NCBI RefSeq assembly: GCF_014174395.1
Contig: NZ_JABEQD010000009.1
Span: forward strand, 1 to 64,000
Length of the DNA stretch: 64,000 nucleotides
Direction of reading: 5' to 3'
Source: Gluconacetobacter aggeris
Lineage (GTDB): Bacteria; Pseudomonadota; Alphaproteobacteria; Acetobacterales; Acetobacteraceae
The first letter of the stretch is position 1. Every line of letters begins with the position of its first letter. The notes beneath the pieces are model-generated. The model ran no database searches. It saw nothing but the letters and a program-made list of their open reading frames with translations, and had not been told where the DNA came from. The position numbers and the translations under genes are program-made. Below, piece by piece: positions 1-14,489 of this stretch.

Positions 1-870
1 CGCCATCTGGTTCGGCGCGGTAAACTGCGCCCTGGGATCGGCGCGCAGCAATTCCACCGGCGAGGTTCCCGGCCCGTTCAGCACCGAATTGGCCAGGTCG
101 AGGCTGCCATGCACGTCCGTCGCCTGCCCCTTCCAGCCAAGGTCCGCATACAGGCTCTGGATGTCGGTGCTTTGCAGGTCCCGCCAGCCCTCCTCATGCA
201 CCTCCCGGCCGGCGACATAAAAACCCCAATCGCCCCGGCGCGCGGCATAATCGCCCTGGGCCACGATGCGCCCGAACGAACCGCCGGACAGATCGGCCTC
301 GCCGCCGGCGGCGGTATTGAATGCGTTCTTCATCCGCACATTCAGCGCACCGCCCAGCGCGTTCAGGCCGAAGACAGGGTTCGGCCCCTCCACCGCCACC
401 CGCTCGATCGCCAGATCCGGGATCAGGTCCCAGTTCACCGTGTCGCCAAAGGCCTGGTTGAAGCGCACACCATCAAGATAGACCGCAACACCCTGCGACG
501 TGCCCTGCAACGGCGACGCCTGGAAGCCGTTCATGACGATGGTGGGCTGATACGGATTCCCCGCCGGCGCATTGAGGCTGACACCCGCCAGACGGCTGTC
601 CAGCGCATGCAGCATGTCGGCGGTGCCGGTCCCTTGCAGGTCATGCGCGGTCAGGATGGCGGTCGCGGCCGGCAGACGGTCACGGTCGATGCCGGAACCC
701 GGCAGTGGCGAGGTTCCGATGACGGTAATGTCCTCCGCCTGCATACCGGCGGACACGCCACCCCGGGCCACTTCCGGCGCCGTCTGCGCCAGCACCGCGC
801 GGGCGGGCAGAAAGCAGAGCGTGACCGAGGCCAGATACAGGGCCCTCCGTCCAGTCGTCTTCTCAAACAT
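1..870 (-). CDS. TonB-dependent outer-membrane receptor, N-terminal part (runs off window start)
   Basis: The frame is open from the ATG at 870 to the window edge, giving 290 codons without a stop, so the C-terminal barrel is missing. Residues 1-29 form a signal peptide with a probable cut at AVLA|QT. Residues about 45-165 are a plug domain, with stretches such as VYLDGVRFNQAFGDTVNWDL and VFGLNALGGALNV that are typical of TonB receptors. The family imports scarce ligands (siderophores, cobalamin, metal chelates, sometimes PQQ) across the outer membrane using TonB energy. The ligand cannot be read from the sequence. It is divergent from a two-component system, 68 bases apart, and sits beside a PQQ alcohol dehydrogenase module; import of a metal complex or PQQ is therefore an inference only. 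The sequence AAGAAGAA upstream of the ATG could serve as a weak ribosome site. Confidence 0.88.
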   Translation of the reverse strand, partial: MFEKTTGRRALYLASVTLCFLPARAVLAQTAPEVARGGVSAGMQAEDITVIGTSPLPGSGIDRDRLPAATAILTAHDLQGTGTADMLHALDSRLAGVSLNAPAGNPYQPTIVMNGFQASPLQGTSQGVAVYLDGVRFNQAFGDTVNWDLIPDLAIERVAVEGPNPVFGLNALGGALNVRMKNAFNTAAGGEADLSGGSFGRIVAQGDYAARRGDWGFYVAGREVHEEGWRDLQSTDIQSLYADLGWKGQATDVHGSLDLANSVLNGPGTSPVELLRADPRAQFTAPNQMA

Positions 871-938
871 GCGTTTATTCTTCTTTTTTGATTGGCATGC
901 CACGCGGTTCATCAGATCGAACGGGGCCAGGGAAGTCG

Positions 939-2357
939 ATGGGACATTTTCCCGAAAATCATAAAAATCATCCGCCCGGCACTGCATTCTTCCCGTTCCG
1001 CCCCATCGGTGCGCGCCTGCGGCTGCTGGAGCGCCTGCTGCTGGCACTCATAGTGGCCACGATGATCGGCCTGGTGGCCGGCTCCGGCCTCGCGGCGTGG
1101 CAGGCCGCCCGCTCGATCCGGGTGGAGCTGGTCGCCGCCCTGGCCAATGCCCGCGCCGATATCAGCGCGATGCCCCCACCATCGGCCCCGTCCGCCGCCC
1201 GCTGGCTGGCGGAACTGTGCGACAGTTTCGACGGCAATCGCCACATCCAGGCCCGCATCACGGATCAGGCCGGGCGCGTGCTGCGCCAGTCCCAACTGGC
1301 TGCCGGGCCCCGCCCGCCCGCCTGGTTCCTGCACGCCACCACGCCGCCCATGGCCCCGGTCACGCTCGCCCCGGCCAGCCTGCCCGCCGGATGGCGGCTG
1401 CACCTGCAAGCGGATGCGACCAACGAGGCGGCGGAACGCTGGGGCGAACTCCGGGTGCAGATCGCCACCATCACGCTGCTGGTCCTGCTGATCGCCGGAT
1501 CATGCTGCGTCATCATGGTGCGCGGCCTGCGCCCGCTGGCCACCCTGTCCAACGGCTATGCCCGGATCGCGGCGGGCGACGAGGGGGTGGAACTCCCCGA
1601 AAGCGGCCCGGCCGATATCGCCGCACAGGCCGCGTCCTTCAATCGCATGGCCCAGGCGCTGCGCACGGCCACCGCCCAGAATCGCCACCTTCAGGACCAG
1701 CTCGCACGCGTCGCGGAGGAAGAACGCGCCGACATCGCGCGCGACCTGCATGACGAGGTCGGCCCCCTGCTGTTTGGAATCACGACCTTCGCGGCCACCC
1801 TCGCCCGCTCCGCCGCCGAAGGCCGCCACGACGCCATCCCCGCGCAGGTGCGCGCCATACAGGACGCCACCGGCTCCATCCAGCGCACCCTGCGCGCGAT
1901 CCTGCAACGGCTGCACGGCACGCCGGGACGCGGGCTGCCCGAAGCCCTGGAGGCGATCGTCCTGTTCTGGAACAATGTCGCCCCGCACATCATCTTCACG
2001 CTTTCCTGCGATCCATCGCTCGGCACCCTGGACGGAGCAGAACGCGACGCCCTGTTTCACGTGGCACAGGAAGCTGTCTGCAACGCCGCCCGCCACGGAC
2101 ATCCTTCGCGCATCGCGCTGCGGGCCGGACGCGATGGCGGGCGGATCATCCTCTCGGTCCGTGACGACGGCACCACCGGCCCCAGCGCACCGGGTCTCGG
2201 GCTCGCCGGCATGTGCCGCCGCCTCTCGGATCTGGGCGGCCATCTGGACATCAGGCGCGACCAAGGCTGGACCGTCACCGCCAGCCTACCCGATCCGGAC
2301 GCCCTTCCCCCATCGGCCAACACCCGCACCATGGCGCCGGAGGCGCACAACGCATGA
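939..2357 (+). CDS. NarL-family sensor histidine kinase
   Basis: A 472-residue membrane sensor kinase. TM1 is at about residues 32-56, followed by a periplasmic segment of roughly 110 residues, TM2 at about 174-194, a HAMP domain at about 195-245, and a HisKA_3 dimerisation domain with the phospho-accepting His271 in ARDLHDEVGPLL. An HATPase domain follows, with an N-box (EAVCNAARHG, Asn382) and a glycine-rich GLGLAG loop. The start at 939 is preferred because AGGGAAG lies just upstream; an in-frame start at 888 is possible. The stop overlaps the response regulator start (ATGA), so the pair is translationally coupled. The short periplasmic sensor region has no domain I recognise. Its place beside the PQQ dehydrogenase genes suggests it controls them, as kinases such as PedS2 do in Pseudomonas; this is inferred from position. 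Confidence 0.9.
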   Translation: MGHFPENHKNHPPGTAFFPFRPIGARLRLLERLLLALIVATMIGLVAGSGLAAWQAARSIRVELVAALANARADISAMPPPSAPSAARWLAELCDSFDGNRHIQARITDQAGRVLRQSQLAAGPRPPAWFLHATTPPMAPVTLAPASLPAGWRLHLQADATNEAAERWGELRVQIATITLLVLLIAGSCCVIMVRGLRPLATLSNGYARIAAGDEGVELPESGPADIAAQAASFNRMAQALRTATAQNRHLQDQLARVAEEERADIARDLHDEVGPLLFGITTFAATLARSAAEGRHDAIPAQVRAIQDATGSIQRTLRAILQRLHGTPGRGLPEALEAIVLFWNNVAPHIIFTLSCDPSLGTLDGAERDALFHVAQEAVCNAARHGHPSRIALRAGRDGGRIILSVRDDGTTGPSAPGLGLAGMCRRLSDLGGHLDIRRDQGWTVTASLPDPDALPPSANTRTMAPEAHNA

Positions 2358-3001
2358 AAATCCTGCTGGTGGACGACCATACGGTGGTGCGCGCCGGCCT
2401 GGGGCAACTGCTTTCAACGGCCCTGGGCGCCACGATCCTGGAAGCCGCCGACACCCCGACCGCCCATGACCTCGCCCTGCGCACGCGGCCGGATCTGGTG
2501 GTGCTGGATCTGGGCCTGCCCGGCGCCGGCGGCCTGTGGCTGCTGCCCCGCCTGCACGATGCCGGCCTGCGCGTGCTGGTCCTGAGCATGCACGCCGACC
2601 CGATCTATGCCCGCCGCGCACTGGATGCCGGGGCCACAGGCTATGTCTCGAAGACGATCGGCCCCGACGACCTGCTGGACGCCATCCGGCAGGCCATGGA
2701 CGGACAATGCTATGTCGAATCCGGAATCGCCTCCATGCTCAGCGAACATCGCGACGTGCTGGGCCGCGATTTCGGGCGCCTGACGGCCCGCGACCTGGAT
2801 ATCATGCGGTTTCTGGGCGAGGGACGCAGCCTGTCCGACATCGCGGCGACACTGGGCGTCAGCTACAAGACGGTGGCCAACACCGCCGGCATGATCAAGA
2901 CCAAGCTGGGCGTCGCACGCACCGCCGACCTGGTCCGTCTGGCCATTGCCATGCCGGTGGGCTGGACCATCGGCGGGCGGGAAAACCGGGAAACGGTTTG
3001 A
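2354..3001 (+). CDS. LuxR/NarL-type response regulator
   Basis: A 215-residue regulator with a receiver domain (residues 1-118: acidic pair DD at 7-8, phospho-acceptor Asp52 in VVLDLGLPG, conserved Lys100) and a C-terminal LuxR-type helix-turn-helix (about 148-208) with the segment LSDIAATLGVSYKTVANTAG. It starts inside the stop codon of the kinase gene, so both are made from one mRNA. LuxR-type regulators of this kind (AgmR/ErbR, PedR2) govern quinoprotein alcohol dehydrogenases in other proteobacteria. The same role here is inferred from the neighbouring genes. Its own binding site is not identified. Confidence 0.92.
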   Translation: MKILLVDDHTVVRAGLGQLLSTALGATILEAADTPTAHDLALRTRPDLVVLDLGLPGAGGLWLLPRLHDAGLRVLVLSMHADPIYARRALDAGATGYVSKTIGPDDLLDAIRQAMDGQCYVESGIASMLSEHRDVLGRDFGRLTARDLDIMRFLGEGRSLSDIAATLGVSYKTVANTAGMIKTKLGVARTADLVRLAIAMPVGWTIGGRENRETV

Positions 3002-3146: not shown

Positions 3147-4751
3147 TCAGAAGAACAGGATCGCGCCGCCCGAGACGGTATTGTCACTGGCCGAATTGCC
3201 GTTATGCGCCGCTGCTTGCGTATGGGCATATTCCGCCACCAGCTTCAGCCAGTCGGTCAGATCGTAATAGGCCGCACCAACCTCGGACTGGTTGCGACGC
3301 ACCAGCCCGGTCGCGGTATCCCCCGACGCCAGATAAAGGTTGCTGACGCCATAACTGCCCACCAGCTTGAAGCGCTTGGTGAAGTTGTAGGCGCCCTGCA
3401 CGTAATACCCTTCCGAATCACGCTTGTGCCCGTTCGGCGCAATGCCGTCGAAGAACAGGCCCGTCGTGCCTAGGCCGCTGCCGCGATAGTAATAGACCAC
3501 GGCCTGAGCGGGGCCATAGGTCAGCTTGGCACCGATTTCGCCGGCCTCGGCCATGGCACCACGCCGGTCCGTTTCCGCCAGCAGGCCGCTCGTCAGACCC
3601 TGCTGATGCTGGATCAGGAAGCTGGACCAGATCCGGGTACTCAGCTCGCCGATCTTGAAATCGTACGTGATCTTGCCCTGGACCATCGGCGAACTGTGCT
3701 GCGTCGACTGCGCCGACAGGCCACCACCGGCAAAATTGAACGCATCCAGCGGCTGGAAGACACCAACCGACCCCTGGAAGCCGGCAATGACCGGCGACGC
3801 ATAGGAAATCTGCGGAATCCAGTCGGCATAGACATAGCCCAGGCCGATCCGGCCCAACGAGGTATTGGCCGGAGCCGTATTGCTGCCCGTCGTGCCGACG
3901 CTGAGCAGCGTCGCATCGTTCAGGATCGCGTCGGAACCGAACAGCGCCAGATCGCGGCCGAGCTTGACGGTGCCGAAGCTCTTCGTTCCCGCCGTCAGAT
4001 AGACCTGACGCAGATCGATGCCCGCCGTGCCCAACCCGACCGAACTGCCGCCGGAATTGGCATTGAACGCGCCCGGATTGGCGTTGTTGAGGCCGGGATA
4101 CAGGCCCAGCACCGCCGACAGGTCGATCCCCGACTGCGTCGTCGACAGTTTGAGGACGAAACCGGCCGGCAGCAGCCCGTTGCGCACCGCCGACGAATCG
4201 AATCCGCTGCCCCCGCTCGACAGCCCGCCCGCCACCGGCAGGCCGTGCCCTGGCGAATTGTAGCTGTAGAACCCGTTCACGAAACCGGAGAAATTGATAT
4301 CGATCTGGCCGGCCTTGAAGGTCAGCCCCTTGCCCGCGACATAAGGGGCAACCCGGACCACGCTGGGGCTGTCGATCGTGCTGCGTGCCGCCAGCATCGA
4401 GGCCTCGGCGGCGCGGGCGCTGGCCGCGGCACTGTCGGCTGCCCGCTGGGCGGCGAGCACCGCCGGCATCACCGCGCCATCCGCGGCGGCCTCGGTCGTG
4501 ACCGCGCCATGGCGTGCCGCCGCACCCCGCCCCCGTCGCGGAGCCTGGGCCGAGGCCGGCTCCACCGCATGATGGCGATGCTTGGCCAGCAGGGTCGAAT
4601 ATTCGACCTGCGTCAACGCACCCTTGGCCCGCAGGATATCTAGAAGATCGCTGTAATCGTCAGCCCTGGCGCAGCGGGCCGACAGCATGGACACGCCGCC
4701 AGCGGCCAGAACGGCCGTCAAACCCACCTGTGCCCAATGTCTTGCCGACAT
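3147..4751 (-). CDS. DcaP-like outer-membrane porin
   Basis: A 534-residue secreted protein. The start at 4751 (MSARHWAQ) gives a signal peptide ending near ARCARA|DD; GGAG lies upstream. After it comes a short conserved helix (DYSDLLDILRAKGALTQVEY), then a low-complexity region rich in Ala and His/Arg, then a long beta-strand region with alternating residues ending in AILFF, the terminal aromatic typical of outer-membrane barrels. This layout matches DcaP-like trimeric porins, which pass small anionic solutes. It lies downstream of the dehydrogenase operon on the same strand, 169 bases from the preceding gene, so it may feed substrate to the periplasmic enzyme. The substrate is not determinable here. 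Confidence 0.82.
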   Translation of the reverse strand: MSARHWAQVGLTAVLAAGGVSMLSARCARADDYSDLLDILRAKGALTQVEYSTLLAKHRHHAVEPASAQAPRRGRGAAARHGAVTTEAAADGAVMPAVLAAQRAADSAAASARAAEASMLAARSTIDSPSVVRVAPYVAGKGLTFKAGQIDINFSGFVNGFYSYNSPGHGLPVAGGLSSGGSGFDSSAVRNGLLPAGFVLKLSTTQSGIDLSAVLGLYPGLNNANPGAFNANSGGSSVGLGTAGIDLRQVYLTAGTKSFGTVKLGRDLALFGSDAILNDATLLSVGTTGSNTAPANTSLGRIGLGYVYADWIPQISYASPVIAGFQGSVGVFQPLDAFNFAGGGLSAQSTQHSSPMVQGKITYDFKIGELSTRIWSSFLIQHQQGLTSGLLAETDRRGAMAEAGEIGAKLTYGPAQAVVYYYRGSGLGTTGLFFDGIAPNGHKRDSEGYYVQGAYNFTKRFKLVGSYGVSNLYLASGDTATGLVRRNQSEVGAAYYDLTDWLKLVAEYAHTQAAAHNGNSASDNTVSGGAILFF

Positions 4752-4920
4752 CTGACAAACTCCGTTGTTTCTTGTTTTTATTATAACGCGTTCGCCTATG
4801 GCGCGAACTACCAATTACGCCGCGCCTGTACAGGCTCCGGTAACGTTCTGGAGGGCACGCAGCCGCATCTGTTCACGGTCCGGTCCGGCCTGCAACCTGG
4901 CCGGACCGGGTCCCCGCTTC

Positions 4921-6108
4921 CTAATCCCCGCTATAGACCAGCGGCACCGTCGATGATTTGGCCCCGTCGAACGTCAGTTCGGCCGAACCGGCAGGCATGC
5001 CGTTCTGCTGCAGCAGAAACGCCATGATGTTCACATAGACATCGTGCGGCAGGCTGGCCGGCTGGGTCGCCGGCATATTCTGCGACACGATCGTGAACAC
5101 GTCGCCAACATGGAAATTCGCCTTGGGCGAGGCGAAATTCTTGCCCTTGAGCGCGGGGCCGGCCATCCCCTCCAGATTGTCGCCATGGCATTGCGCGCAA
5201 TTATCGGCATAGGCCTTCTTGCCTGCATCGGCCTGCGCCGCCGTAAAGAGCGCCGGCTTCGCCCCACCAGCAGCAGGCGTTGCCGGAGCGGCCGCCGGGG
5301 CCGCCGGCGCTTCCGCCGCCGCGAGGACGATCGGGTTGGCCGGCGACATGGCATAAGGGCGCAGCAGCGCCGCCAATTGGCCGGACCGCCGCAGCGCCGC
5401 GATGCTCTTCTGGAAAGACGCCGCCGCAGCAGCACCCTGCGGGCCATACAGCGCCACCACGTCCCAGTCGGCATGGGGTTCGCTCAGCGCGTGCATGCAA
5501 TAGTCACGCGCCTTTTCCCCACCGGGCAGATAGGCCACCGCACTGGCGCGCCAGACCATCGCCGCCCGATCCGTGCGATGGACCACGCTCGCAATGGTCT
5601 GCGCATCGGTCGGATAGATATCGGCGTGGACATTGGGATGTTTCACGAAATACAGGTTCGGCGCCGTCAGGTAGGTCACCGCCACATCCGTCCCGTTCGG
5701 CAGGGCCGCCAGCGTTTCGGCCTCGTGGCCGCGCGGCGTCACCAGCACGAATCCCATCCGTGCATAGGGCGCCGTCGCCCGCATCCCCTCTGGCACCGCG
5801 CCATGCGTGGCATCGACGGGAAAGCCCAGCACCAGCGCACAGCGCGAGGCCGCGAGCGTGCTGAATTTCCGGACATCGAATCCGTCATCGTCCCCCGCGC
5901 CACTGCCGTCGAACGTATAGATCGCGGCATCGGTGCCCTGCTGGCGGGCCACCGCCTGGACAACCCGGCGATCCATCGCATGGGCCGGGTTGGAGGAATC
6001 GATGCAGACCGAAACCGTGGCCCCGGCCGGCCGCGCGGCAAGCACGGCACCGACGGCTACGGCGCAGGCCAGGGCGCGGCGCGACAGGCGGGCAATATTC
6101 ATGCGCAT
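4921..6108 (-). CDS. Fused XoxJ-like periplasmic binding domain and cytochrome c
   Basis: A 395-residue secreted protein. A signal peptide (about 1-30, cut near AGA|TV) precedes a domain at about 31-260 resembling the extracellular solute-binding-like proteins MoxJ/XoxJ that accompany methanol dehydrogenases. An Ala/Pro-rich linker (about 260-290) leads to a class I cytochrome c with CAQCH at 304-308 and a candidate axial Met345 in NMPATQ. The start is fixed by AAGGAGG five bases upstream; this ribosome site overlaps the TAA of the upstream dehydrogenase gene, so the two are co-expressed. In known systems the J protein and the G cytochrome are separate; here one chain could both activate the dehydrogenase and take its electrons. 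The domain assignment is confident; the function is inference. Confidence 0.85.
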   Translation of the reverse strand: MRMNIARLSRRALACAVAVGAVLAARPAGATVSVCIDSSNPAHAMDRRVVQAVARQQGTDAAIYTFDGSGAGDDDGFDVRKFSTLAASRCALVLGFPVDATHGAVPEGMRATAPYARMGFVLVTPRGHEAETLAALPNGTDVAVTYLTAPNLYFVKHPNVHADIYPTDAQTIASVVHRTDRAAMVWRASAVAYLPGGEKARDYCMHALSEPHADWDVVALYGPQGAAAAASFQKSIAALRRSGQLAALLRPYAMSPANPIVLAAAEAPAAPAAAPATPAAGGAKPALFTAAQADAGKKAYADNCAQCHGDNLEGMAGPALKGKNFASPKANFHVGDVFTIVSQNMPATQPASLPHDVYVNIMAFLLQQNGMPAGSAELTFDGAKSSTVPLVYSGD

Positions 6109-6118
6109 GCGGTCCTCC

Positions 6119-7870
6119 TTACAGCGCGAAGACATAGAGATGGCCACCCAGCGGAATCGAGCGGACACGCGGGTCCTTCGCCATGTCGCCGCCCCAGATC
6201 GGCACACCGCCGCCCCAACCGGCATAGACGCCGACATATTGCCTGTCGCCGACCTTCCAGGTGCTGGGCACGCCAAGGACACCCGACGACATTTTCGGAC
6301 TCTTCCACAGCACGGAACCCGTTTTCGCGTCGAAGGCATACAGATAGCCGTCGGCGCTGCCCGAGAAGACCAGCCCGCCCGCCGTCGCCAGCATTCCCCC
6401 GTTCCACGGCAGCGCGGATTTGAACGACCAGGCCTGCTTGCCGGAATTCAGGTCGATGGCCTGGACCGAACCCCATTCATCGGGATGTTCCGGATCGCGC
6501 ATGACGGTAAAGGTCTCGCCCAGGAACGGCAGGCCGGCCTTGTACGAAACCGAGGCCCCCTTCATCTTCATGCAGGTGTGCAGTGTCGGCACATAAGCGA
6601 AATGGGTCTGCGGATCGACGGCGATCGGCCACCAGTTCTTGCCGCCCAGGAAGCTGGGGCAGGTAAAGATCTCCTTGTCCACGTCCGGCCGCATGGCGGG
6701 GTCGGTCATCGGCCTGCCATCCTTGAAGCCGGAAACCGACGTCGCATGCGCGAATTTTTCAGCGTAGATCAGTTTCCCGTTCGTACGGTCGACCGCATAG
6801 AACCAGCCATTGCGGCTGGCGCTGACCAGCGCCTTGTACGCCTTGCCCTGGTAGGTCAGGTCGGTCAGGACCGGCTCGTTCGTGCCGTCATAATCCCATG
6901 TATCGTTCGGCGTGTACTGGTAATGCCACTTGATCTTGCCGGTCGCCGGGTTCAGCGCGATCACGCTGTCGGTATAGAGATTGTCGCCCGGCCGCAGCAC
7001 CGCCAGCCACGGCCCCGGATTGCCCACGCCCCAGATCAGCGAGTCGGTCTGCGGGTCGTAACTGCCGGTCAGCCAGGTGGCGCCACCACCGGTCTTGTAG
7101 GCCCCCTTGGGCCAGGTATCGCCGCCCGGTTCGCCCGGAGCCGGAATCGTCGACTGCCGCCAGATCTGCTTGCCGGTCTTGGCATCCAGCGACGCAATGA
7201 AGCCCCGCCCGCCATACTCGCCACCCGAGACGCCGACAATGACATGGCCCTTGACCACCAGCGGCGCCAGCGTCATCGCATAGCCCAGGTCCGGCGCCTC
7301 CAGCGCCTGGTCCCACACCACCTTGCCGGTCGTGGCATCCAGCGCCAGCACATGATTGTCCAGCGTGGCCATGTAGACATTGCTGCCATACAGCGCGACG
7401 CCACGGTTCACCACGTCGCAGCAGATCGTCTTCAGCCCCACATCGGACAGGTCGCGCTGATATTTCCACAGCAGCTTGCCGGTGCTGGCCTGAAAGGCCA
7501 GCAGCCCGTTCTTCGGCGTGGTGATGAACATGTAATCGCCATTGACGATCGGCGGCGCCTCATGCCCGCTCTTCGAGCCCGTCTCATAATCCCAGGCGGG
7601 CTTGAGCTGGGCGACATTGCCCGCGTTGATGCCGTCCAGGACCGAATAGCCCGTGCTGGAATAATCATGCCGGTACATCAGCCAGCCATTGTCCTGCGCC
7701 GCGTGGCCCAGCCGCTCGCTCGTCACCGGCTGATAGGGGCCGGCCGGGTCTTCCGCCCGGACGGGGGATGTAACCGTCAGCGCGGTCGCACAGGCCAGTG
7801 CGACCGGCAGGGCCAGCACCGCATTGCGCAGGGGCCGCCTGGTGACGCTGGTACGGTAAGCAAACTTCAT
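6119..7870 (-). CDS. PQQ-dependent alcohol dehydrogenase, probably lanthanide-type
   Basis: A 583-residue periplasmic quinoprotein of the methanol/ethanol dehydrogenase family (eight-bladed propeller with repeated W-motifs such as LDATTGKVVW). The start at 7870 (MKFAYRTS) gives a signal peptide cut near VRA|ED. Active-site features visible are the vicinal disulfide Cys150-Cys151, metal ligands Glu218 and Asn284, the catalytic base Asp326 in NDTWDYDGTNE, and a second Asp328 two residues on. In this family Asp at that place marks lanthanide-using enzymes (XoxF, ExaF/PedH), whereas calcium enzymes usually have Ala or Ser. There is no CXXCH, so it is not a quinohemoprotein and must pass electrons to a separate cytochrome, most simply the one encoded next. 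The substrate (ethanol, methanol or another alcohol) is not fixed by sequence reading. Confidence 0.93.
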   Translation of the reverse strand: MKFAYRTSVTRRPLRNAVLALPVALACATALTVTSPVRAEDPAGPYQPVTSERLGHAAQDNGWLMYRHDYSSTGYSVLDGINAGNVAQLKPAWDYETGSKSGHEAPPIVNGDYMFITTPKNGLLAFQASTGKLLWKYQRDLSDVGLKTICCDVVNRGVALYGSNVYMATLDNHVLALDATTGKVVWDQALEAPDLGYAMTLAPLVVKGHVIVGVSGGEYGGRGFIASLDAKTGKQIWRQSTIPAPGEPGGDTWPKGAYKTGGGATWLTGSYDPQTDSLIWGVGNPGPWLAVLRPGDNLYTDSVIALNPATGKIKWHYQYTPNDTWDYDGTNEPVLTDLTYQGKAYKALVSASRNGWFYAVDRTNGKLIYAEKFAHATSVSGFKDGRPMTDPAMRPDVDKEIFTCPSFLGGKNWWPIAVDPQTHFAYVPTLHTCMKMKGASVSYKAGLPFLGETFTVMRDPEHPDEWGSVQAIDLNSGKQAWSFKSALPWNGGMLATAGGLVFSGSADGYLYAFDAKTGSVLWKSPKMSSGVLGVPSTWKVGDRQYVGVYAGWGGGVPIWGGDMAKDPRVRSIPLGGHLYVFAL

Positions 7871-8092
7871 CTTGGATCTCCCGCAACACTCTTCCGGTAG
7901 GAATCGTCCGCACGGCATTTCAGCTTCCGGGAAATGAAAGTCGCGCCCAACCGTCCGCAACGCCGTCCGGCCGAGGGCCGGATAAGCGTAACGACAGGAA
8001 CATGGCGCAAGATCCGTAAGTAATCCCCGACAAAACCGTTCATGACGATGCTCCACCTGCACGTTCGTCGTTCTTATGTGTCAGGCCCCTCA

Positions 8093-8107
8093 GCATTTGC
8101 CGGTCCA
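8093..8107 (-). promoter_or_regulatory. sigma54-like -24/-12 boxes for the dehydrogenase operon
   Basis: On the minus strand the sequence reads TGGACCGGCAAATGC, with GG and GC separated by ten bases as sigma54 promoters require. The -24 half is imperfect (consensus TGGCAC). Transcription would start about 210 bases before the dehydrogenase ATG. The palindrome at 8151-8168 lies upstream, where an enhancer-binding activator could sit. Prediction only. Confidence 0.25.
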
Positions 8108-8114
8108 GGCGTTT

Positions 8115-8126
8115 CTGTCACGACAG
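8115..8126. promoter_or_regulatory. Short palindrome CTGTC-AC-GACAG
   Basis: A perfect 5+2+5 palindrome that shares its TGTC/GACA ends with the two larger sites at 8151-8168 and 8453-8470. It is probably a half-strength or unrelated site. Confidence 0.3.
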
Positions 8127-8150
8127 CGAAAAGGCATGGGGCCGGCGGAC

Positions 8151-8168
8151 TGTCGCAAAACTGCGACA
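8151..8168. promoter_or_regulatory. Operator-like palindrome TGTCGCA-N4-TGCGACA
   Basis: A perfect 7+4+7 inverted repeat, flanked further by GGAC and AGTCC, which extend the symmetry. Sites of the form TGTCGCA/TGCGACA are typical of Fis-family sigma54 activators such as AcoR. No such activator is encoded in this window, so the binding protein is unknown. Confidence 0.55.
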
Positions 8169-8297
8169 AGTCCGGAGCCGGTCGCGCAAGAACAGGGCCG
8201 GAAAACCATGGTGCAACGCAGAAAATCGCGGACGGCGCTTTTATTCCCCCGCGGCATCGATACGGATTGACTATAATCACGTTTCAGAGATTATGGC

Positions 8298-8312
8298 CGG
8301 CACGATGAAAGC
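8298..8312 (+). promoter_or_regulatory. sigma54-like -24/-12 boxes for the oxidase operon
   Basis: The sequence CGGCACGATGAAAGC keeps GGCACG of the -24 box and the GG-N10-GC spacing; the -12 half (AAGC) is poor. It would start a transcript about 340 bases before the diheme cytochrome gene. Prediction only. Confidence 0.22.
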
Positions 8313-8350
8313 GCCCCTGTTCCTGTCTCTCTATTGCGTGGCCTGACCGG

Positions 8351-8427
8351 AAATGTGGGCTGGTGCGCCAGGGCGCCGCGCAAGCGGCACGTCCACCATG
8401 TGCTTCCGAGCCTCGGCGCGGACCGGA
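8351..8427. repeat. Partial copy of structured intergenic repeat
   Basis: Aligns over about 77 bases with 23303-23379, sharing the core GCCGCGCAAGCGGCACG, the neighbouring GGGCTGGTG and the later CTTCCGAG. It keeps a GCCGC-GCAA-GCGGC hairpin. The long terminal inverted repeats of the other copy are not conserved here. Confidence 0.6.
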
Positions 8428-8452
8428 TTTCCATCCCCTGATCGCGCGCGCC

Positions 8453-8470
8453 TGTCTCAATTCTGCGACA
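8453..8470. promoter_or_regulatory. Operator-like palindrome TGTCTCA-N4-TGCGACA
   Basis: A second copy of the 7+4+7 site at 8151-8168 with one mismatch between arms. Flanking CC and GG extend the arms to nine bases. It lies about 190 bases before the diheme cytochrome start. Confidence 0.5.
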
Positions 8471-8663
8471 GGTCACGTATCCGGATCGAAACCACCCCCG
8501 TGACAGGCCAGCGGCAACATCGGAAAGTCGCAGCCGAAGAGCGAGCGGGCCAATAAGCAAGAATACCAGGAACCGCGATGCAGGGGGATTGCGGGCGATG
8601 CCCGGTTTCCGGCAATCGCCTGTAGCTTATCATATCGGCAAGACACCCGAACGGGAGAAAGGC

Positions 8664-9374
8664 ATGCACCAGGCGGCGGAAAGCATCATCCGTCCAGGCC
8701 GGCGACGGGCTGGCGTATTGACGCTCTTGGGACTCACCCTGCTGGCCGCGCAACCGTCCCGCGCGGCCGATACCCCCGATCCGGCGGCGGGGCGGACAAT
8801 CGCGGAAAGCGGCGTCCTGACCGGCCATGTCGGCTGCTCGGCCTGCCACCTGATGAACGGTGCCGGACAGCCCGAGATGGGCATACCGCGCCTGGCAGGC
8901 TTCTCGGCCGCCTATCTGGAGCAGCAGCTGGGCTTCTTCGCGTCCGACAAGCGCAGCAACAACTGGATGGCCCCCTATGCGCGGATGCTGACCCGGAAGC
9001 AGATGCAGGACGTCGCCGCCTATTATGCCAGCCTGCCCGAACCGCCCCCGGCCGAGAACGACCCGGCCGGCGACACATTGCGCGCGCGCGGCAAGGAGAT
9101 CTTCCAGAAAGGGGACATGCCCCACGGCGTGATGCCATGCGGCGGCTGTCATGGCCCGGCGGGCCAGGGCATGGGCAGCTTCGCCCCGCATCTGGCCGGG
9201 CAGTCCGCCCCCTATCTGCTGGAACAGTTGCGGCAATGGCAGCAGGGCAGGGATCGCGACCCGATGGGCAAGATAATGGTGAAGGAAACCCACGCGATGG
9301 CCGACACCGACATGCAGGCCGTCGCGGCCTACCTGCAAAGCCTGCCGGCACCGGACACGGGAGCCACGAAATGA
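8664..9374 (+). CDS. Diheme cytochrome c (c4-like)
   Basis: A 236-residue secreted protein. The start at 8664 (MHQAAESI) is preferred over an in-frame ATG at 8589 because GGGAGAAAGG precedes it; it leaves a signal peptide cut near SRA|AD. Two heme c sites are visible: CSACH in the first half and CGGCH in the second. Each half has the GRxLAG-like and Met-bearing segments of cytochrome c4-type domains. It opens the oxidase operon and overlaps the next gene by ATGA, so it is the likely electron donor to the CuA centre of the oxidase. By position it may accept electrons from the cytochrome domain of the divergent alcohol dehydrogenase operon. Confidence 0.9.
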   Translation: MHQAAESIIRPGRRRAGVLTLLGLTLLAAQPSRAADTPDPAAGRTIAESGVLTGHVGCSACHLMNGAGQPEMGIPRLAGFSAAYLEQQLGFFASDKRSNNWMAPYARMLTRKQMQDVAAYYASLPEPPPAENDPAGDTLRARGKEIFQKGDMPHGVMPCGGCHGPAGQGMGSFAPHLAGQSAPYLLEQLRQWQQGRDRDPMGKIMVKETHAMADTDMQAVAAYLQSLPAPDTGATK

Positions 9375-9529
9375 GCACACCGACCACACATGATGACGGG
9401 AATGACGGCATCGCCCCGCCCGTGATGGAGGTCCGGCCGGTCGGCACCTGGGTTGTCAGCTTCGTGCTGCTGGCGGCGACGCTGACGGTCTGGGTCCTGG
9501 TCTCGGTGATCTTCCTGCATCGCGCGTGA
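9371..9529 (+). CDS. Small single-TM protein, probable oxidase subunit IIa
   Basis: A 52-residue protein with a polar N-terminus rich in Asp and Pro and one transmembrane helix (about residues 27-49, WVVSFVLLAATLTVWVLVSV). It overlaps the cytochrome gene by ATGA and ends 16 bases before subunit II, with GGGAGAGGAA between. ba3-type oxidases of Thermus carry a similar one-helix subunit IIa that supplies the helix lacking from subunit II. The match here rests on size, topology and position rather than recognisable sequence identity. Confidence 0.7.
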   Translation: MSTPTTHDDGNDGIAPPVMEVRPVGTWVVSFVLLAATLTVWVLVSVIFLHRA

Positions 9530-9545
9530 CGGGAGAGGAACGGTT

Positions 9546-10076
9546 ATGGACAACAAAACGGGCATGAGCCCATTCGAAGCCGCCTTCCATGCCTCGGCCG
9601 AACGGCACGAGCGGTTCTGGATCTTCGGCGTGCTGGTCATGCTGGTACTGCTGACGATCGGGACGATGTTCTACGTCGTCCATGATTACGGCCTGGTAAC
9701 CGGCACCCATTCCTACGCGGCCGACCCGCAGGCCCCGGCGCGCGAAGCCGCGTTCCAGGACGGCAAGGTGGTCCGCACCGGCCCGAATAGCTATGCGGTC
9801 TATATGGTCGGCCGCGCCTGGCACTGGGCGCCGGACGTGATCCATGTGCCCGAAGGGGCCGAAATCACCTTCTACGTCACCAGCGCCGACGTGCTGCATG
9901 GTTTCGAGATCCAGGGCACGCCGGTCAACCTGACGGCGGTACCGGGCGTGGTCGGCACGGTGAAATACACGTTCCGCCATGCCGGACTGTTCCGCATCAT
10001 CTGCAACGAATATTGCGGCATGTTCCACCACGCCATGGTGGCCCGCATCATCGTCGATCCGGCAGGCACACCATGA
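9546..10076 (+). CDS. Cytochrome c oxidase subunit II (CuA), ba3-like
   Basis: A 176-residue protein with one N-terminal TM helix (about 25-48) and a cupredoxin domain. The CuA ligand cluster CNEYCGMFHHAM near the C-terminus gives the two Cys, His and Met ligands; the earlier His is in VLHGFEI. It receives electrons from cytochrome c on the periplasmic side. Its length and single anchor fit ba3 (family B) oxidases rather than the two-helix aa3 type. It overlaps subunit I by ATGA. ATG at 9546 follows GGAGAGGAACGG. Confidence 0.93.
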   Translation: MDNKTGMSPFEAAFHASAERHERFWIFGVLVMLVLLTIGTMFYVVHDYGLVTGTHSYAADPQAPAREAAFQDGKVVRTGPNSYAVYMVGRAWHWAPDVIHVPEGAEITFYVTSADVLHGFEIQGTPVNLTAVPGVVGTVKYTFRHAGLFRIICNEYCGMFHHAMVARIIVDPAGTP

Positions 10077-11818
10077 GCATGGAAATCACAGCCGACACAC
10101 TCCCGTCCGCCCTGGCCCGGTCCGACTCCGACCGCGCCGCCGCCAGCATGCACCGGCTGATGCTGGCCTTCCTGATCACGGGCTTCTCCGCCCTGCTGAT
10201 CGGGGCGACCATCGGCCCGCTCCAGGCATTGAATTACGGTGGGGTCGACGCCTATCCCGCCCTGCGCCCGCTGCTGCAGAGCTATTACCAGGGCCTGACC
10301 ATCCATGGAGTGATGAACGGGTACGTCTTCACCTTCTTCATCACCTGCGGGCTGCTGGTCTACCTGCCGGCCCGCGAACTGGGCGTGGCGCCCAATCTCG
10401 TGATGTGGCGCACCTGTTTCGCGATCATGGCGGTGGGTGCGCTGTGCGTACTCTATGCCATGGCCGACAATTCCTCGTCGGTGCTGTGGACATTCTATCC
10501 GCCGCTGAAGGGCAGCCCGTTCTTCTATATCGGCATCACGCTCCTGGCCCTGGGCAGCACCATGCCGCTGCCGATCCTGCTGGAGATGCGCGCGACCTGG
10601 CGCCGGCACCGCCCCGGCGAAATCACGCCGCTGGTCACGTACATGTCGCTCACCACCATGCTGATGTGGGGCCTGGCCGGCGTGGGCGTGATGGCCGAAC
10701 TGGTGCTCCAGCTCGACCCGTGGTCGCTGGGGCTGATCGGCACCGTCGACCCGATCATCAACCGCACGCTGTTCTGGCTGACGGGCCACCCGATCGTCTA
10801 TTTCTGGCTGATGCCGGCCTATGTCTCATGGTACGGCCTGCTGTCGCGCCAGGTCGGCGGCAAGCTGATCTCCGATCCGATGGCGCGGATCACCTTCGCC
10901 CTCCTGATGATCTTCGCGCTGCCCGTGGGCACGCACCATCAATTCTCCGATCCGGGCTTCTCGTCGATCTGGCGCGGCATCCTGGTGGTGCTGACCATGT
11001 CGGTGGCCACCCCCAGCCTGGTCACCGCCTTCACCATCGGGCTGAGCCTGGAATATGCCGGCCGCCTGCGCGGCGGACAGGGCTGGTTCGGCTGGTTCCG
11101 CGCCCTGCCCTGGGGCGATCCCAGCGTGGCGGCACAGCTCCTCGCGGCGATCACCTTCATCCTTGGCGGCGCCACGGGCATCGTCAACGGCAGCTGGCAG
11201 CTCAACGCCATCGTCCATAACACCACCTTCATCCCCGGCCATTTCCACGTCACCGTCGGCAGCGTCACCGCCATGACCCTCATGGCGATCAGCTTCTGGA
11301 TGGTGCCCCATCTGACCGGCCGCCAACTGATCAGCCGCCGGCTGGCGCTGTTCTCCGTCTGGACCTGGTTCGTCGGCATGACGATCTTCGCCATCGGCAT
11401 GACATGGGCCGGCCTCTACGGCGTGCCGCGCCGGGCATGGGTCTCGGCCCTCCCCCACGACACCTATCACGCGCTCTATGGTGCGGCATCGGTCCCGCTG
11501 GCACTGGTGGCGGCAGGCGGTGTCCTGCTGTGGGTGGCCAGCTATGCGTTCTTCGCCGTCTTTTTCGGCAGCATCCTGTTCGGCCGGCGCGCGGCCCCTC
11601 CGCCCGTTCCCTTCGCCCAGTCCTTCGGCGGCCCGGCCAGCTCCACCATCGACTCGCCGCCCAACCCGGCCCAGTCGGCCTCGCCCCTGATCCGCGCGCT
11701 GGATCATGTGTGGCTGTTGACCGGCATCACGGTCCTGGCGACCCTCGCCGCCTATATCCCGATCCTCTGGCCGTTCCTGCATCATGTGACGCGGGCACCG
11801 GGCTGGATTCTCTGGTAG
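10073..11818 (+). CDS. Cytochrome c oxidase subunit I, ba3-like
   Basis: A 581-residue multi-helix heme-copper oxidase core. Visible ligands are the low-spin heme His in TIHGVMNGYVF, the CuB His and cross-linked Tyr in GHPIVYFWLMPAY, the CuB His pair in GTHHQF and the heme His pair in GHFHVTVGSV. The HPxVYFWLMPAY form and the single-anchor subunit II place it with family B (ba3) oxidases. It reduces oxygen to water and pumps protons. The start is set by the overlap with subunit II. Confidence 0.93.
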   Translation: MSMEITADTLPSALARSDSDRAAASMHRLMLAFLITGFSALLIGATIGPLQALNYGGVDAYPALRPLLQSYYQGLTIHGVMNGYVFTFFITCGLLVYLPARELGVAPNLVMWRTCFAIMAVGALCVLYAMADNSSSVLWTFYPPLKGSPFFYIGITLLALGSTMPLPILLEMRATWRRHRPGEITPLVTYMSLTTMLMWGLAGVGVMAELVLQLDPWSLGLIGTVDPIINRTLFWLTGHPIVYFWLMPAYVSWYGLLSRQVGGKLISDPMARITFALLMIFALPVGTHHQFSDPGFSSIWRGILVVLTMSVATPSLVTAFTIGLSLEYAGRLRGGQGWFGWFRALPWGDPSVAAQLLAAITFILGGATGIVNGSWQLNAIVHNTTFIPGHFHVTVGSVTAMTLMAISFWMVPHLTGRQLISRRLALFSVWTWFVGMTIFAIGMTWAGLYGVPRRAWVSALPHDTYHALYGAASVPLALVAAGGVLLWVASYAFFAVFFGSILFGRRAAPPPVPFAQSFGGPASSTIDSPPNPAQSASPLIRALDHVWLLTGITVLATLAAYIPILWPFLHHVTRAPGWILW

Positions 11819-11828
11819 GCCACGCGGC

Positions 11829-12434
11829 GTGACGGCACTTGCGCCACCGCTCCGCCAGTCCCTGCGGCGCGCCGCCTGCGCGGTGGCCGCCATCCTGGCC
11901 CTCCTGGTGCTCCATGCCGGCTGGAGCGGCGGCTTCGGCCGGTTCGGCTCCCCGGTCGCACCGGCCCCGGCCCCGAGCCTCGCATTGCGCGACGATCTGG
12001 GCCGCCCGTTCGACCCGGCAACGCTGCACGACCGGGCAACGCTGGTCTATTTCGGCTATGTACGCTGCCCCGATGTCTGCCCGACCGTGCTGGGGGCGCT
12101 GGAACCCGTCTTCGCCCGACTGGGCCCAGACGCGGCGCGGACAGCCATCCTGTTCGTCACGCTGGACCCGGCGCATGACACGCCCGCCGTACTGCACGGC
12201 TTCCTCTCCCAGTTCCAGCCGGCCCCGACCGGCCTGACCGGCCCCCCCGCCGATGTGGCCGCGATAGCCCGCGCCTGGGGAATCGGCTGGACGGGAACCG
12301 ACGGCCATATCAACCACAATTCAGTCCTCATGCTGGTCGGCCCCGACGGGCGGATGCGTGCCCGCTACGGCATGACCCAGTTGAACGATCCGGATGCGAT
12401 GGCCGCCGACATCCGCGCGGTTCTCCCCCGATGA
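11829..12434 (+). CDS. SCO1/SenC-family copper chaperone
   Basis: A 201-residue thioredoxin-fold protein. A GTG start at 11829 gives an N-terminal membrane anchor (about 13-32). The copper site is visible as CPDVC with the distant His in HINHNSV. SCO proteins load copper into CuA of subunit II, which fits its place directly after the oxidase genes. It overlaps the next gene by ATGA. Confidence 0.92.
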   Translation: MTALAPPLRQSLRRAACAVAAILALLVLHAGWSGGFGRFGSPVAPAPAPSLALRDDLGRPFDPATLHDRATLVYFGYVRCPDVCPTVLGALEPVFARLGPDAARTAILFVTLDPAHDTPAVLHGFLSQFQPAPTGLTGPPADVAAIARAWGIGWTGTDGHINHNSVLMLVGPDGRMRARYGMTQLNDPDAMAADIRAVLPR

Positions 12435-13174
12435 GGGGCTGGAGCCCCCTGCTTCAGGCCGGCTGGGTCGCCGCCGGGCTGCTCATGGGCACCGCGATCC
12501 TGCTGCTGGCCGCCCGGCACCGCCGGCCGGCATGGCGGCTGACGGCGGGCGGCACCGGCACGCTGCTGCTGGCGGCCTCCTGCCTGGGGCTGCGTGACCC
12601 CCTCGCATCGATGACGCAGTACACCACTGCCCTCATGGTCATGGGTCAGGTCGTTCCCCCCTTCCTGCTGCTGGCCCTCGCCGGCCCCACGACCAGGCAG
12701 GCCGCCCCCGTCCGGGTCGCGGGCTGGACGCGCGACCCCGGGGTGGCGGCGGCGCTGTTCGGCGGCCTGGCTGTAGCGACCGGCCTGCCATCAATCCTGG
12801 ACCGCTCGCTGGCCAACGCCCTGTTCAGCGCGCCCCTGGGCCTGCTGGACCTGCTGGCCGGCCTGCTGTTCTGGGCCCAGTTGATGCCGGGCAGCCGCGT
12901 GATCCGGCACGATCCGATGGCCGGCGCCTACGCGCTGCTGGGCAGCCTGCCGATGACGGTCGTGGCCGTGATATGGATGACGGCGCCGCGCGTGCTCTAC
13001 GCCCCCTATCTCGACGTACTGTGCCGATGGGACCTGACCCCGCTTCAGGATCAGCACTGGGCGGGTTTCGTCATGCTGGTGGCGGGCCTGCCGCTCCAGG
13101 TCGTGGGCGCATGGCTGCTGGTCGCGACCCAGGGGCAGAAACCCCCGCCGGCCTTGACCGGCCCCGCCGAATGA
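12431..13174 (+). CDS. CtaG (Caa3-type) oxidase assembly protein
   Basis: A 247-residue integral membrane protein with about six or seven TM helices, matching the Caa3_CtaG family by layout and by segments such as MTQYTTALMVMGQVVPPFLL and DQHWAGFVMLVAGLP. The family helps build CuB oxidases. It is last in the five-gene overlapping string 8664-13174, so its expression is tied to the oxidase. It is distinct from Cox11-type CtaG, which is a soluble-domain copper chaperone. Confidence 0.85.
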   Translation: MRGWSPLLQAGWVAAGLLMGTAILLLAARHRRPAWRLTAGGTGTLLLAASCLGLRDPLASMTQYTTALMVMGQVVPPFLLLALAGPTTRQAAPVRVAGWTRDPGVAAALFGGLAVATGLPSILDRSLANALFSAPLGLLDLLAGLLFWAQLMPGSRVIRHDPMAGAYALLGSLPMTVVAVIWMTAPRVLYAPYLDVLCRWDLTPLQDQHWAGFVMLVAGLPLQVVGAWLLVATQGQKPPPALTGPAE

Positions 13175-13332: not shown

Positions 13333-14118
13333 ATGTCAGACGGATCTCTTCCCTCTTCTCCCCAGATCGGCCTGTTCGGCTTCGGCGCCTTCGGGCGGCT
13401 GATCGCCCCCCACCTGGCCGCCCACTGCCCCGTCCGCGTCCACGATCCCCTTCTGCCGCCGGGCCCCCTCATGCCGGGGATGGCGGCGACGAATCTGGAA
13501 GATGCCGCCGCCTGCCCGATCGTGATCCTGGCGGTTCCGGTCGCGCGGATGCAGGCGGTCGCGCGCGCGATCGCTCCCCACCTGCCCCGCCACGCGCTGG
13601 TGGCCGATGTCGGCTCGGTCAAGATCCTGCCGGCGGAGATCCTGTGCCGGGAACTGCCGGACCATGTCCGCATCATCGCGACCCATCCCCTGTTCGGCCC
13701 CCAGAGCGCGCGGGACGGCATCGCCGGCCACCGCATCGTGCTCTGCCCGCTCCGGCGGACCAGGCCCGGCGCCGTGGCCGCGTTCCTGCGCCGGACCCTG
13801 GGGCTGGACGTCATCCTGACCACGCCCGACGCCCATGACCGCGACGCCGCGATGGCGCAGGGCCTGACCCACCTGCTGGCGCGCATCCTCTCCGAGATGG
13901 GCCCGATGCCCGAACGGATCAGCACCAGCAGCTTCGACCTGATCCGCGCCGCCACCGCCATGGTGCGGGACGACGCGCCGGACGTCTCTCACGCCATCGC
14001 GCACCTCAATCCCCACGCAGGCGCGGTGCGCCGGCGCTTCCTCGCCATCGCCGGCCGAATCGCGGAAAGTGATGACGCGAAGGACGCAGCCCCCTTCCCC
14101 GAAAGGGCGTTCGGGTGA
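13333..14118 (+). CDS. Prephenate/arogenate dehydrogenase family (TyrA-like)
   Basis: A 261-residue enzyme with an N-terminal Rossmann fold (GLFGFGAFGRL, residues about 13-23) and the TyrA signature THPLFGPQSA, with the conserved His. The family oxidatively decarboxylates prephenate or arogenate in tyrosine synthesis. The ATG at 13333 is chosen because it sits directly before the Rossmann strand; an in-frame upstream frame begins at 13255. No ACT domain is present. It is not linked to other aromatic genes here, so its exact substrate is open. Confidence 0.82.
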   Translation: MSDGSLPSSPQIGLFGFGAFGRLIAPHLAAHCPVRVHDPLLPPGPLMPGMAATNLEDAAACPIVILAVPVARMQAVARAIAPHLPRHALVADVGSVKILPAEILCRELPDHVRIIATHPLFGPQSARDGIAGHRIVLCPLRRTRPGAVAAFLRRTLGLDVILTTPDAHDRDAAMAQGLTHLLARILSEMGPMPERISTSSFDLIRAATAMVRDDAPDVSHAIAHLNPHAGAVRRRFLAIAGRIAESDDAKDAAPFPERAFG

Positions 14119-14153
14119 AAGATGATACGGTCTTGGACAGGGAGAAGAAGATC

Positions 14154-14489
14154 ATGGCAACGATCGACCCCGTGACCTATGTCGTCGCCGACGCGCACAC
14201 GGCGCGCCTGCTCCGCCACGAAGGACCCGCGCTGCACACCATCCGGCACATCGCGACCACCGAACAGTTCGCCACCACGATCGCCGCGACGCTGAACCAC
14301 GGCGTGACCGACGGCACGATCAGCCGCTTCGTCCTGGCCGCGCCGGGCCATCTCCTGCACGCCATCCGCGCCGACCTGACCGCCGCCGCCCAGGACAGGC
14401 TGATCCTGGCCGTGTCCAAGGAACTGGCACAACTGCCGGACCACGAACTGATCGATCATTTCGACATACCGGCGACCGGCTGGCCATAA
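14154..14489 (+). CDS. Short host-attachment (BaeRF-like) family protein
   Basis: A 111-residue protein. GGGAGAAGAAG precedes the ATG at 14154. It begins with a VVADAHTARLL strand and ends with VSKELAQLPDHELIDHF, both resembling the ends of the host attachment protein family, related to peptide release factor folds. Usual members are about 140-150 residues, with a variable loop after the first strand pair; here that loop is nearly absent. Function in this organism is unknown. It follows the TyrA-like gene by 35 bases. Confidence 0.6.
   Translation: MATIDPVTYVVADAHTARLLRHEGPALHTIRHIATTEQFATTIAATLNHGVTDGTISRFVLAAPGHLLHAIRADLTAAAQDRLILAVSKELAQLPDHELIDHFDIPATGWP

Follow-up and report, generated by a model that had tools for sequence, protein, structure and literature searches.

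Alcohol oxidation by dehydrogenases that carry pyrroloquinoline quinone (PQQ) is encoded in several described gene clusters. The exa/ped system of Pseudomonas (PedE/PedH, PedF, PedG, an aldehyde dehydrogenase and PedS2-PedR2) and the xoxF-xoxJ-xoxG operons, in which a lanthanide-type PQQ dehydrogenase is joined by a J protein and a cytochrome, come closest to the locus described here. A fusion of G and J is known from Methylacidiphilum, the cytochrome cGJ (PMC8498564, PMC6688271), and according to a 2026 review the terminal acceptor for PedF is still unknown (PMC12997753). PQQ dehydrogenases beside cytochrome c oxidase operons have already been described from alphaproteobacteria, in the COX operon type a-II, whose oxidase is aa3-type with a COX1-COX4 fusion and not B-family, so that the B-family case reported here is a variant (PMC4013037). 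A further close system is TsdBA, a thiosulfate dehydrogenase with its diheme partner, where it is linked to a ba3-like oxidase. The locus lies near the start of a 64,000-nucleotide stretch of Gluconacetobacter aggeris DNA (assembly GCF_014174395.1, contig NZ_JABEQD010000009.1; hereafter the window), in which an operon for a PQQ alcohol dehydrogenase (ADH) and an operon for a ba3-like oxidase diverge from a common region. The genome belongs to the liquefaciens group of Gluconacetobacter: its oxidase subunit I (CoxA) shares 97% identity with the G. tumulicola protein, in a search that may have left out the records closest to the window.

We read this locus as a co-regulated, dedicated branch from alcohol to oxygen that bypasses quinone, and give this explanation as a whole a probability of roughly 0.65. 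The lanthanide-type dehydrogenase would oxidize an alcohol in the periplasm; electrons would pass from it to the haem of a J-G fusion protein, then to a diheme c4/TsdB-like cytochrome, and from c4 by way of CuA to oxygen at the ba3-like oxidase, with no quinone involved. The ExaC acetaldehyde dehydrogenase encoded in the same neighbourhood makes ethanol or another short alcohol a likelier substrate than methanol. The palindrome TGTCGCA-N4-TGCGACA precedes the genes for the dehydrogenase, the oxidase and the aldehyde dehydrogenase, and is probably the binding site of a short GAF-HTH regulator whose gene lies beside the last of these. The oxidase cluster probably derives from one whose c4 served a TsdA-like thiosulfate dehydrogenase, the tsdA gene having since been lost. 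The original prediction had also proposed a separate respiratory branch, and this view was strengthened by the adjacency of the operons in ten loci, by a palindrome beside both of them in nine, by the mutual exclusion of tsdA and the dehydrogenase, and by Acidomonas, which retains the module without a match to bc1 or to alternative complex III (ACIII). The locus thus offers, at the locus itself and with a palindrome in common with the dehydrogenase, a candidate oxidase for the cytochromes of PQQ dehydrogenases. If the reading is true, acetic acid bacteria run a quinone-free, probably rare-earth-dependent alcohol branch alongside the classical one, and the locus exemplifies a respiratory chain rewired through exchange of the electron donor. 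A literature search of titles and abstract openings found no description of such a module.

Genes and recurrence of the two operons

Two divergent operons, for a porin, a PQQ alcohol dehydrogenase, a binding-domain/cytochrome fusion, a diheme cytochrome c and a ba3-like oxidase with its assembly factors, had been proposed from the DNA alone. The named genes proved to be open reading frames at their places, and family and structure searches agreed with the assignments, the porin being a label.

3147 to 4814, minus strand: putative outer-membrane porin (label only)
4921 to 6102, minus strand: J-G fusion of a diverged XoxJ/PedG-like binding domain and a monohaem cytochrome c (one CxxCH, residue 303; cytochrome Pfam match)
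6119 to 7870, minus strand: PQQ-dependent alcohol dehydrogenase, lanthanide-type by its motif (WDYDG, D-x-D; TIGR03075, 601.5 bits; 6zcw, 429 bits)
8151 to 8168, no strand: palindrome TGTCGCAAAACTGCGACA on the dehydrogenase side, in a conserved block of the divergent region
8267 to 8294, plus strand: weak sigma-70-like promoter match on the oxidase side (1 found, 0.3 expected)
8453 to 8470, no strand: second palindrome copy TGTCTCAATTCTGCGACA, 1 mismatch, on the oxidase side, in a conserved block of the divergent region
8589 to 9374, plus strand: diheme cytochrome, c4/TsdB-like (two CxxCH; PDB 5lo9, then c4 6q2u)
9371 to 9529, plus strand: 52-residue single-helix protein between c4 and CoxB (open reading frame)
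9546 to 10076, plus strand: oxidase subunit II, CoxB (PF00116), with CuA motif CNEYCGMFHHAM
10073 to 11818, plus strand: oxidase subunit I, CoxA, B-family (ba3-like) (PF00115; Thermus ba3 as best match; ligand motifs)
11829 to 12434, plus strand: SCO1/SenC copper chaperone (PF02630; CPDVC)
12431 to 13174, plus strand: Caa3_CtaG assembly factor (PF09678)

The starts of the dehydrogenase (7870 likely, not 8062) and of the J-G fusion (6102) are corrected ones, and c4 perhaps starts near 8664 instead of 8589. Scans of Pfam and NCBIfam gave no family match for the porin, homologues of which (49-52% identity) also lie near the ADH and J-G (ADH-JG) genes in four loci without the oxidase (L101, L102, L108, L109).

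Both hmmscan and sequence searches of the PDB placed the dehydrogenase in the PQQ methanol/ethanol family. Its WDYDG motif is of the Asp-x-Asp (D-x-D) kind, with the second Asp two residues past the catalytic one, and D-x-D was present in all 28 rows of its clade in an alignment that left out the weak PQQ rows L006 and L007 and near-identical rows; two rows taken as Ca-type MxaF (L213, L216) carry DYA instead. The Glu and Asn ligand positions both align with 6zcw, a quinoprotein ethanol dehydrogenase that is the best PDB chain and that we take to be PedH. Judged by its motif the enzyme is probably lanthanide-type, which bears out the active site originally predicted, and it would use the metal accordingly typical of that type. 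Membership of XoxF was rejected: the S. meliloti row L223, which scores 1091 bits against XoxF 6oc5, groups elsewhere in the dehydrogenase tree (support 96/88*), and the window dehydrogenase reaches 351 bits against XoxF-named chains and 357 bits against 4mae. This tree, from which 11 further PQQ dehydrogenase rows were left out, held no named PedH or ExaF row.

The J-G protein is a single chain with J followed by G. This single-chain build is shared with cytochrome cGJ, whose published name xoxG:J, as far as the name goes, suggests the reverse order. The C-terminal half holds the one CxxCH, and the N-terminal half is weakly J-like: seven of eight split J proteins scanned match TIGR03871 (E 8e-3 to 2e-7), at 16-31 bits and so all below the cut-offs of 212 and 258 (TIGR03871/TIGR03870). 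An assignment of the fused domain to the curated J family was rejected, the fused protein matching neither TIGR03871 nor TIGR03870, and its N-terminal half would be at most a diverged relative of the XoxJ/PedG-like binding proteins. An AlphaFold model of the fusion, from a 10-row alignment, was discarded for its mean predicted local distance difference test score (pLDDT) of 39.8. Fused J-G proteins are present in other genera of the family and, at 33% identity, on a Caballeronia plasmid.

The best PDB match of the c4-like protein is 5lo9, over residues 4-190. The 18 best PDB rows for CoxA are all Thermus-ba3-type chains (502-527 bits), subunit I has the CuB and haem ligand motifs, and subunit II has the CuA motif; by these features the oxidase is classed as B-family (ba3-like). 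The 52-residue protein is possibly a small oxidase subunit. Its homologues occur in other Gluconacetobacter loci and in some loci that have the oxidase only, and tblastn found none in L122, L124 and L136.

A search of named genomes together with tblastn found the divergent arrangement in ten loci, seven from Gluconacetobacter (the window, G. tumulicola, G. takamatsuzukensis, G. asukensis, G. liquefaciens, G. dulcium and G. sacchari), two from Acetobacter (A. sacchari and A. nitrogenifigens) and one from Acidomonas methanolica, the survey of locus neighbours covering 40 of the 80 named loci. Because it was found again in ten loci, the arrangement is not due to chance. Identities are lowest in Acidomonas (72% for the dehydrogenase, 67% for CoxA), where tblastn did not find a porin match.

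Features in common with the exa/ped system are 6zcw as the nearest solved dehydrogenase, a nearby aldehyde dehydrogenase of the ExaC type, J-like and cytochrome partners, a porin, and a LuxR-type regulator within a two-component system; the fusion of J and G and the presence of a terminal oxidase set the locus apart. From the xoxF systems the locus differs in that the dehydrogenase falls outside the XoxF clade and an oxidase operon adjoins.

Shared palindrome and the GAF-HTH regulator

The two palindrome copies, at 8151-8168 and, with 1 mismatch, at 8453-8470, coincide with two conserved blocks in the alignment of the divergent region; the sigma-70-like match falls within a block kept in seven Gluconacetobacter. 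The pattern TGTCNCANNNCTGCGACA occurs with 0 mismatches at these two places alone in the whole genome, and the palindrome at up to 2 mismatches would be expected 0.24 times per 64-kb window. Except in Acidomonas, which has none, every module locus (nine of the ten) has a copy with 0-1 mismatch at each of its two operons. One such copy also lies upstream of the dehydrogenase, at a distance of 70 to 1804 bases, in 6 of 21 loci without an adjoining oxidase, with an aldehyde dehydrogenase gene between palindrome and dehydrogenase in three of them (L086, L101, L102); the other 15, one of which has only 186 searchable bases, have none. No copy was found upstream of c4 in the 16 oxidase-only loci, among which L131 has a 2-mismatch place beyond ctaG. 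When 2.5-kb stretches were drawn at random from these loci, known sites included, 131 of 2000 held a site with 0-1 mismatch. The palindrome looks native to the dehydrogenase operon, because it is found at dehydrogenase-only loci and never upstream of c4 in oxidase-only loci, with a second copy arising where the oxidase joined.

Sites with one mismatch point to a candidate regulator. In both the window genome and G. liquefaciens, one separates the gene of a GAF-HTH_8 regulator from that of an acetaldehyde dehydrogenase of the ExaC type; the G. liquefaciens copy of the latter (L256) scores 927 bits against the NF050026 cut-off of 900, and the window genome's copy (L252) is 96% like it. Genomes that carry the palindrome (L252, L256, L086, L101, L107, L108, L109) have a GAF-HTH regulator without a sigma-54 domain in seven of seven cases scanned, and the L102 regulator is of the short form by alignment, whereas the regulator has a sigma-54 domain in all six scanned loci without palindrome (L088, L090, L092, L105, L106, L113). 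In the remaining palindrome-free loci no such regulator was matched within the stretch, except for a 28% match in L221, and for the other module loci, those of the window genome and G. liquefaciens aside, it falls beyond the stretch analysed or was not found. From this pairing we infer that the short GAF-HTH regulator probably binds the palindrome. Sigma-54 control, as by the AcoR-like regulators with a sigma-54 domain at related loci, was rejected, the window genome's regulator having no such domain. The shared site tracks the GAF-HTH regulator and not a known metal sensor, and the original suggestions of a metal-regulated or low-substrate branch gained no support.

Other one-mismatch sites of the window genome (L253, L254, L255; contigs C1, C5, C10) outline a possible regulon. 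One lies between an operon for an E1-component (acetoin-type) dehydrogenase and a second GAF-HTH regulator, one flanks a membrane PQQ dehydrogenase close to which a third HTH_8 protein is encoded, and the G. liquefaciens counterpart of another precedes a TonB receptor. All four one-mismatch places were found again in G. liquefaciens; a further site lies at C8:131074.

Possible donor exchange and the proposed route of the electrons

Requiring a c4 match, 26 c4 + ba3 loci were counted, 10 of them with the module and 16 without (two of the latter from Methylobacterium brachiatum). A TsdA-like gene lies between c4 and CoxB in 14 of the 16 oxidase-only loci and in 0 of the 10 module loci; the two oxidase-only loci that lack it are G376, of the same genus and with neither neighbour, and Azospirillum oryzae. 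The product of this gene matches thiosulfate dehydrogenase structures and the C-terminal half of 5lo9, which is presumably a TsdB-TsdA fusion and whose N-terminal half is matched by c4. The module loci thus resemble TsdBA systems in c4 and in the order of oxidase, Sco and CtaG, and differ in having no TsdA-like gene. The tsdA-bearing clusters themselves (L123:8343-9314 and 13 other loci, from Methylobacterium, Paraburkholderia, Acidiphilium, Lichenicoccus and others) are a candidate thiosulfate-to-oxygen module.

The exclusivity of the tsdA-like gene and ADH-JG suggests a donor swap, which would have run from thiosulfate to alcohol. The oxidase tree (without row L140) unites the module loci and G376 (83/90), with Acidomonas branching first; in the dehydrogenase tree, too, Acidomonas is the earliest of the module loci to branch off (95/79), Lichenicoccus being the sister (98/95). 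Both trees fit a module that arose once and was later lost in G376, neither module node being strong. An approximately unbiased (AU) test rejected a grouping of the ten module loci to the exclusion of G376 (p 0.0165), which in our view reflects a loss of ADH-JG from that genome. We tentatively propose, at somewhat short of an even chance, that the oxidase and diheme cytochrome ancestrally served a thiosulfate dehydrogenase, that this enzyme was lost and a copy of the operator of the alcohol regulator acquired, and that the oxidase became the private, quinone-independent terminal oxidase of a lanthanide-type ADH.

Outside the module the window genome carries bc1 and pqqC, two cyo-like quinol oxidases, an aa3-like oxidase linked to NrfD, and a fragmentary COX1, the oxidase types being read from sequence and neighbours. 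The two cyo-like oxidases and a PQQ-ADH homologue, an open frame of 829 residues, lie elsewhere in the genome, in agreement with the original view that this locus is not the usual acetic acid bacterial route. A large PQQ-ADH homologue and a cyo-like quinol oxidase operon lie about 2.3 kb apart (L234, C3:40000-52000), and the fragmentary COX1 lies near a heme O synthase-like gene (L230, C3, about 141.4-142.5 kb), perhaps as the remains of a decayed oxidase operon. Work by Matsutani from 2014 reportedly deals, at least in part, with oxidase replacement in acetic acid bacteria.

The alternative that survives best, itself unlikely, is that bc1 or other carriers feed c4-ba3, which would be a high-affinity cytochrome c oxidase of general use, and that the dehydrogenase only shares its promoter region and growth condition. 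Cytochrome c1 was present in 11 of 11 same-genus genomes tested and bc1 cytochrome b also in the two Acetobacter, and G376 retains the oxidase without ADH-JG. Against this explanation, the palindrome occurs upstream of c4 solely where ADH-JG adjoins, and Acidomonas retains the module. There the ba3-like oxidase would hardly be fed by quinol via known complexes, because profile matches for cytochrome c1, the cytochrome b C-domain and NrfD were all absent; neither bc1 nor ACIII is evident from the sequence.

Less probable still is that J-G feeds a general pool of cytochrome c from which any oxidase accepts, the adjoining ba3 being one outlet among several. Among 397 genomes of the family, at least 26 have a J-G match that spans the J part (a lower bound, with candidates to E 1e-10 and at most four per genome scored), and a ba3 relative scoring above 500 bits is present in 14. 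As many as 14 of the 26 ADH-JG genomes have no such relative, so that J-G must have other acceptors there, and the window genome has its aa3-like oxidase; in Acidomonas, by contrast, ba3 appears to be the sole evident c oxidase, other PF00115 matches (named from sequence starts) being a cyo-like quinol oxidase, a qNorB-like protein and one below the cut-off. The expected co-conservation of both operons held only from the oxidase side, since just 2 of the 14 ba3 genomes are without ADH-JG. One of the 14 (G196) has a 49% identical oxidase and no matches to c4, Sco or CtaG. Both parts are present in 12 genomes and adjacent in eight; these counts are given without a p-value, as the genomes are relatives. 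Across 385 genomes of the class the ba3 search returned only the window's own at E<=1e-120. Chance adjacency of two mobile operons, both halves of which are found apart elsewhere, is strongly disfavoured by the ten loci, the compatible trees and the conserved palindromes.

Several observations weigh against a dedicated branch. The window genome has bc1 and the NrfD-linked aa3-like oxidase, so quinol could feed c4-ba3. Besides the family genomes with ADH-JG and no ba3 relative, four of the 12 with both carry them on different contigs. The oxidase of G376 without ADH-JG and the modest support of the module nodes count on the same side, as do the one-mismatch sites, which alone are weak: in the window genome the reversed pattern gave 0 and 3 places against 6 and 5 (forward, reverse). 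Moreover, Acidomonas, the best case for isolation from quinol, has no palindrome copy, two-component system, porin or regulator match in its stretch.

Acidomonas possesses a separate methanol-oxidase chain. It also has an MxaF-like enzyme and, beside the module, a second D-x-D dehydrogenase, and the two may share the ba3-like oxidase. In A. methanolica this second D-x-D PQQ dehydrogenase adjoins the module together with a cytochrome that has a weak PedF-type match (L124:384-4051).

Genes around the module

The module had been called self-contained, a description that is not supported: directly outside it are encoded a two-component system, the GAF-HTH regulator, a TonB receptor and an aldehyde dehydrogenase of the ExaC type, and pqqC lies elsewhere. 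The window itself holds three of the flanking genes.

1 to 912, minus strand: TonB-dependent receptor, N-terminal part, cut by the contig end (90% to L256:1893-4292)
888 to 2357, plus strand: sensor histidine kinase (HAMP-HisKA_3-HATPase), kept in 9 of 10 module loci
2354 to 3001, plus strand: LuxR-type response regulator, kept in 9 of 10 module loci

The kinase, in which a named sensor domain was sought and none found, and the response regulator are encoded next to the porin in the nine module loci other than Acidomonas. In G. liquefaciens the regulator, ExaC and TonB receptor genes lie together, the receptor (L256:1893-4292, TonB_dep_Rec/Plug) having its start next to the histidine kinase. 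The receptor gene is split in the window genome, with its N-terminal part at window 1-912 and its C-terminal end at the end of contig C2 (L252); contigs C2 and C9 are therefore neighbours in the genome. In Acetobacter sacchari two TonB-dependent receptor genes lie directly beyond ctaG (L122:13255-18162), and in the window a Host_attach / baeRF family 12 protein is encoded at 14115-14489, about 1 kb beyond the module.

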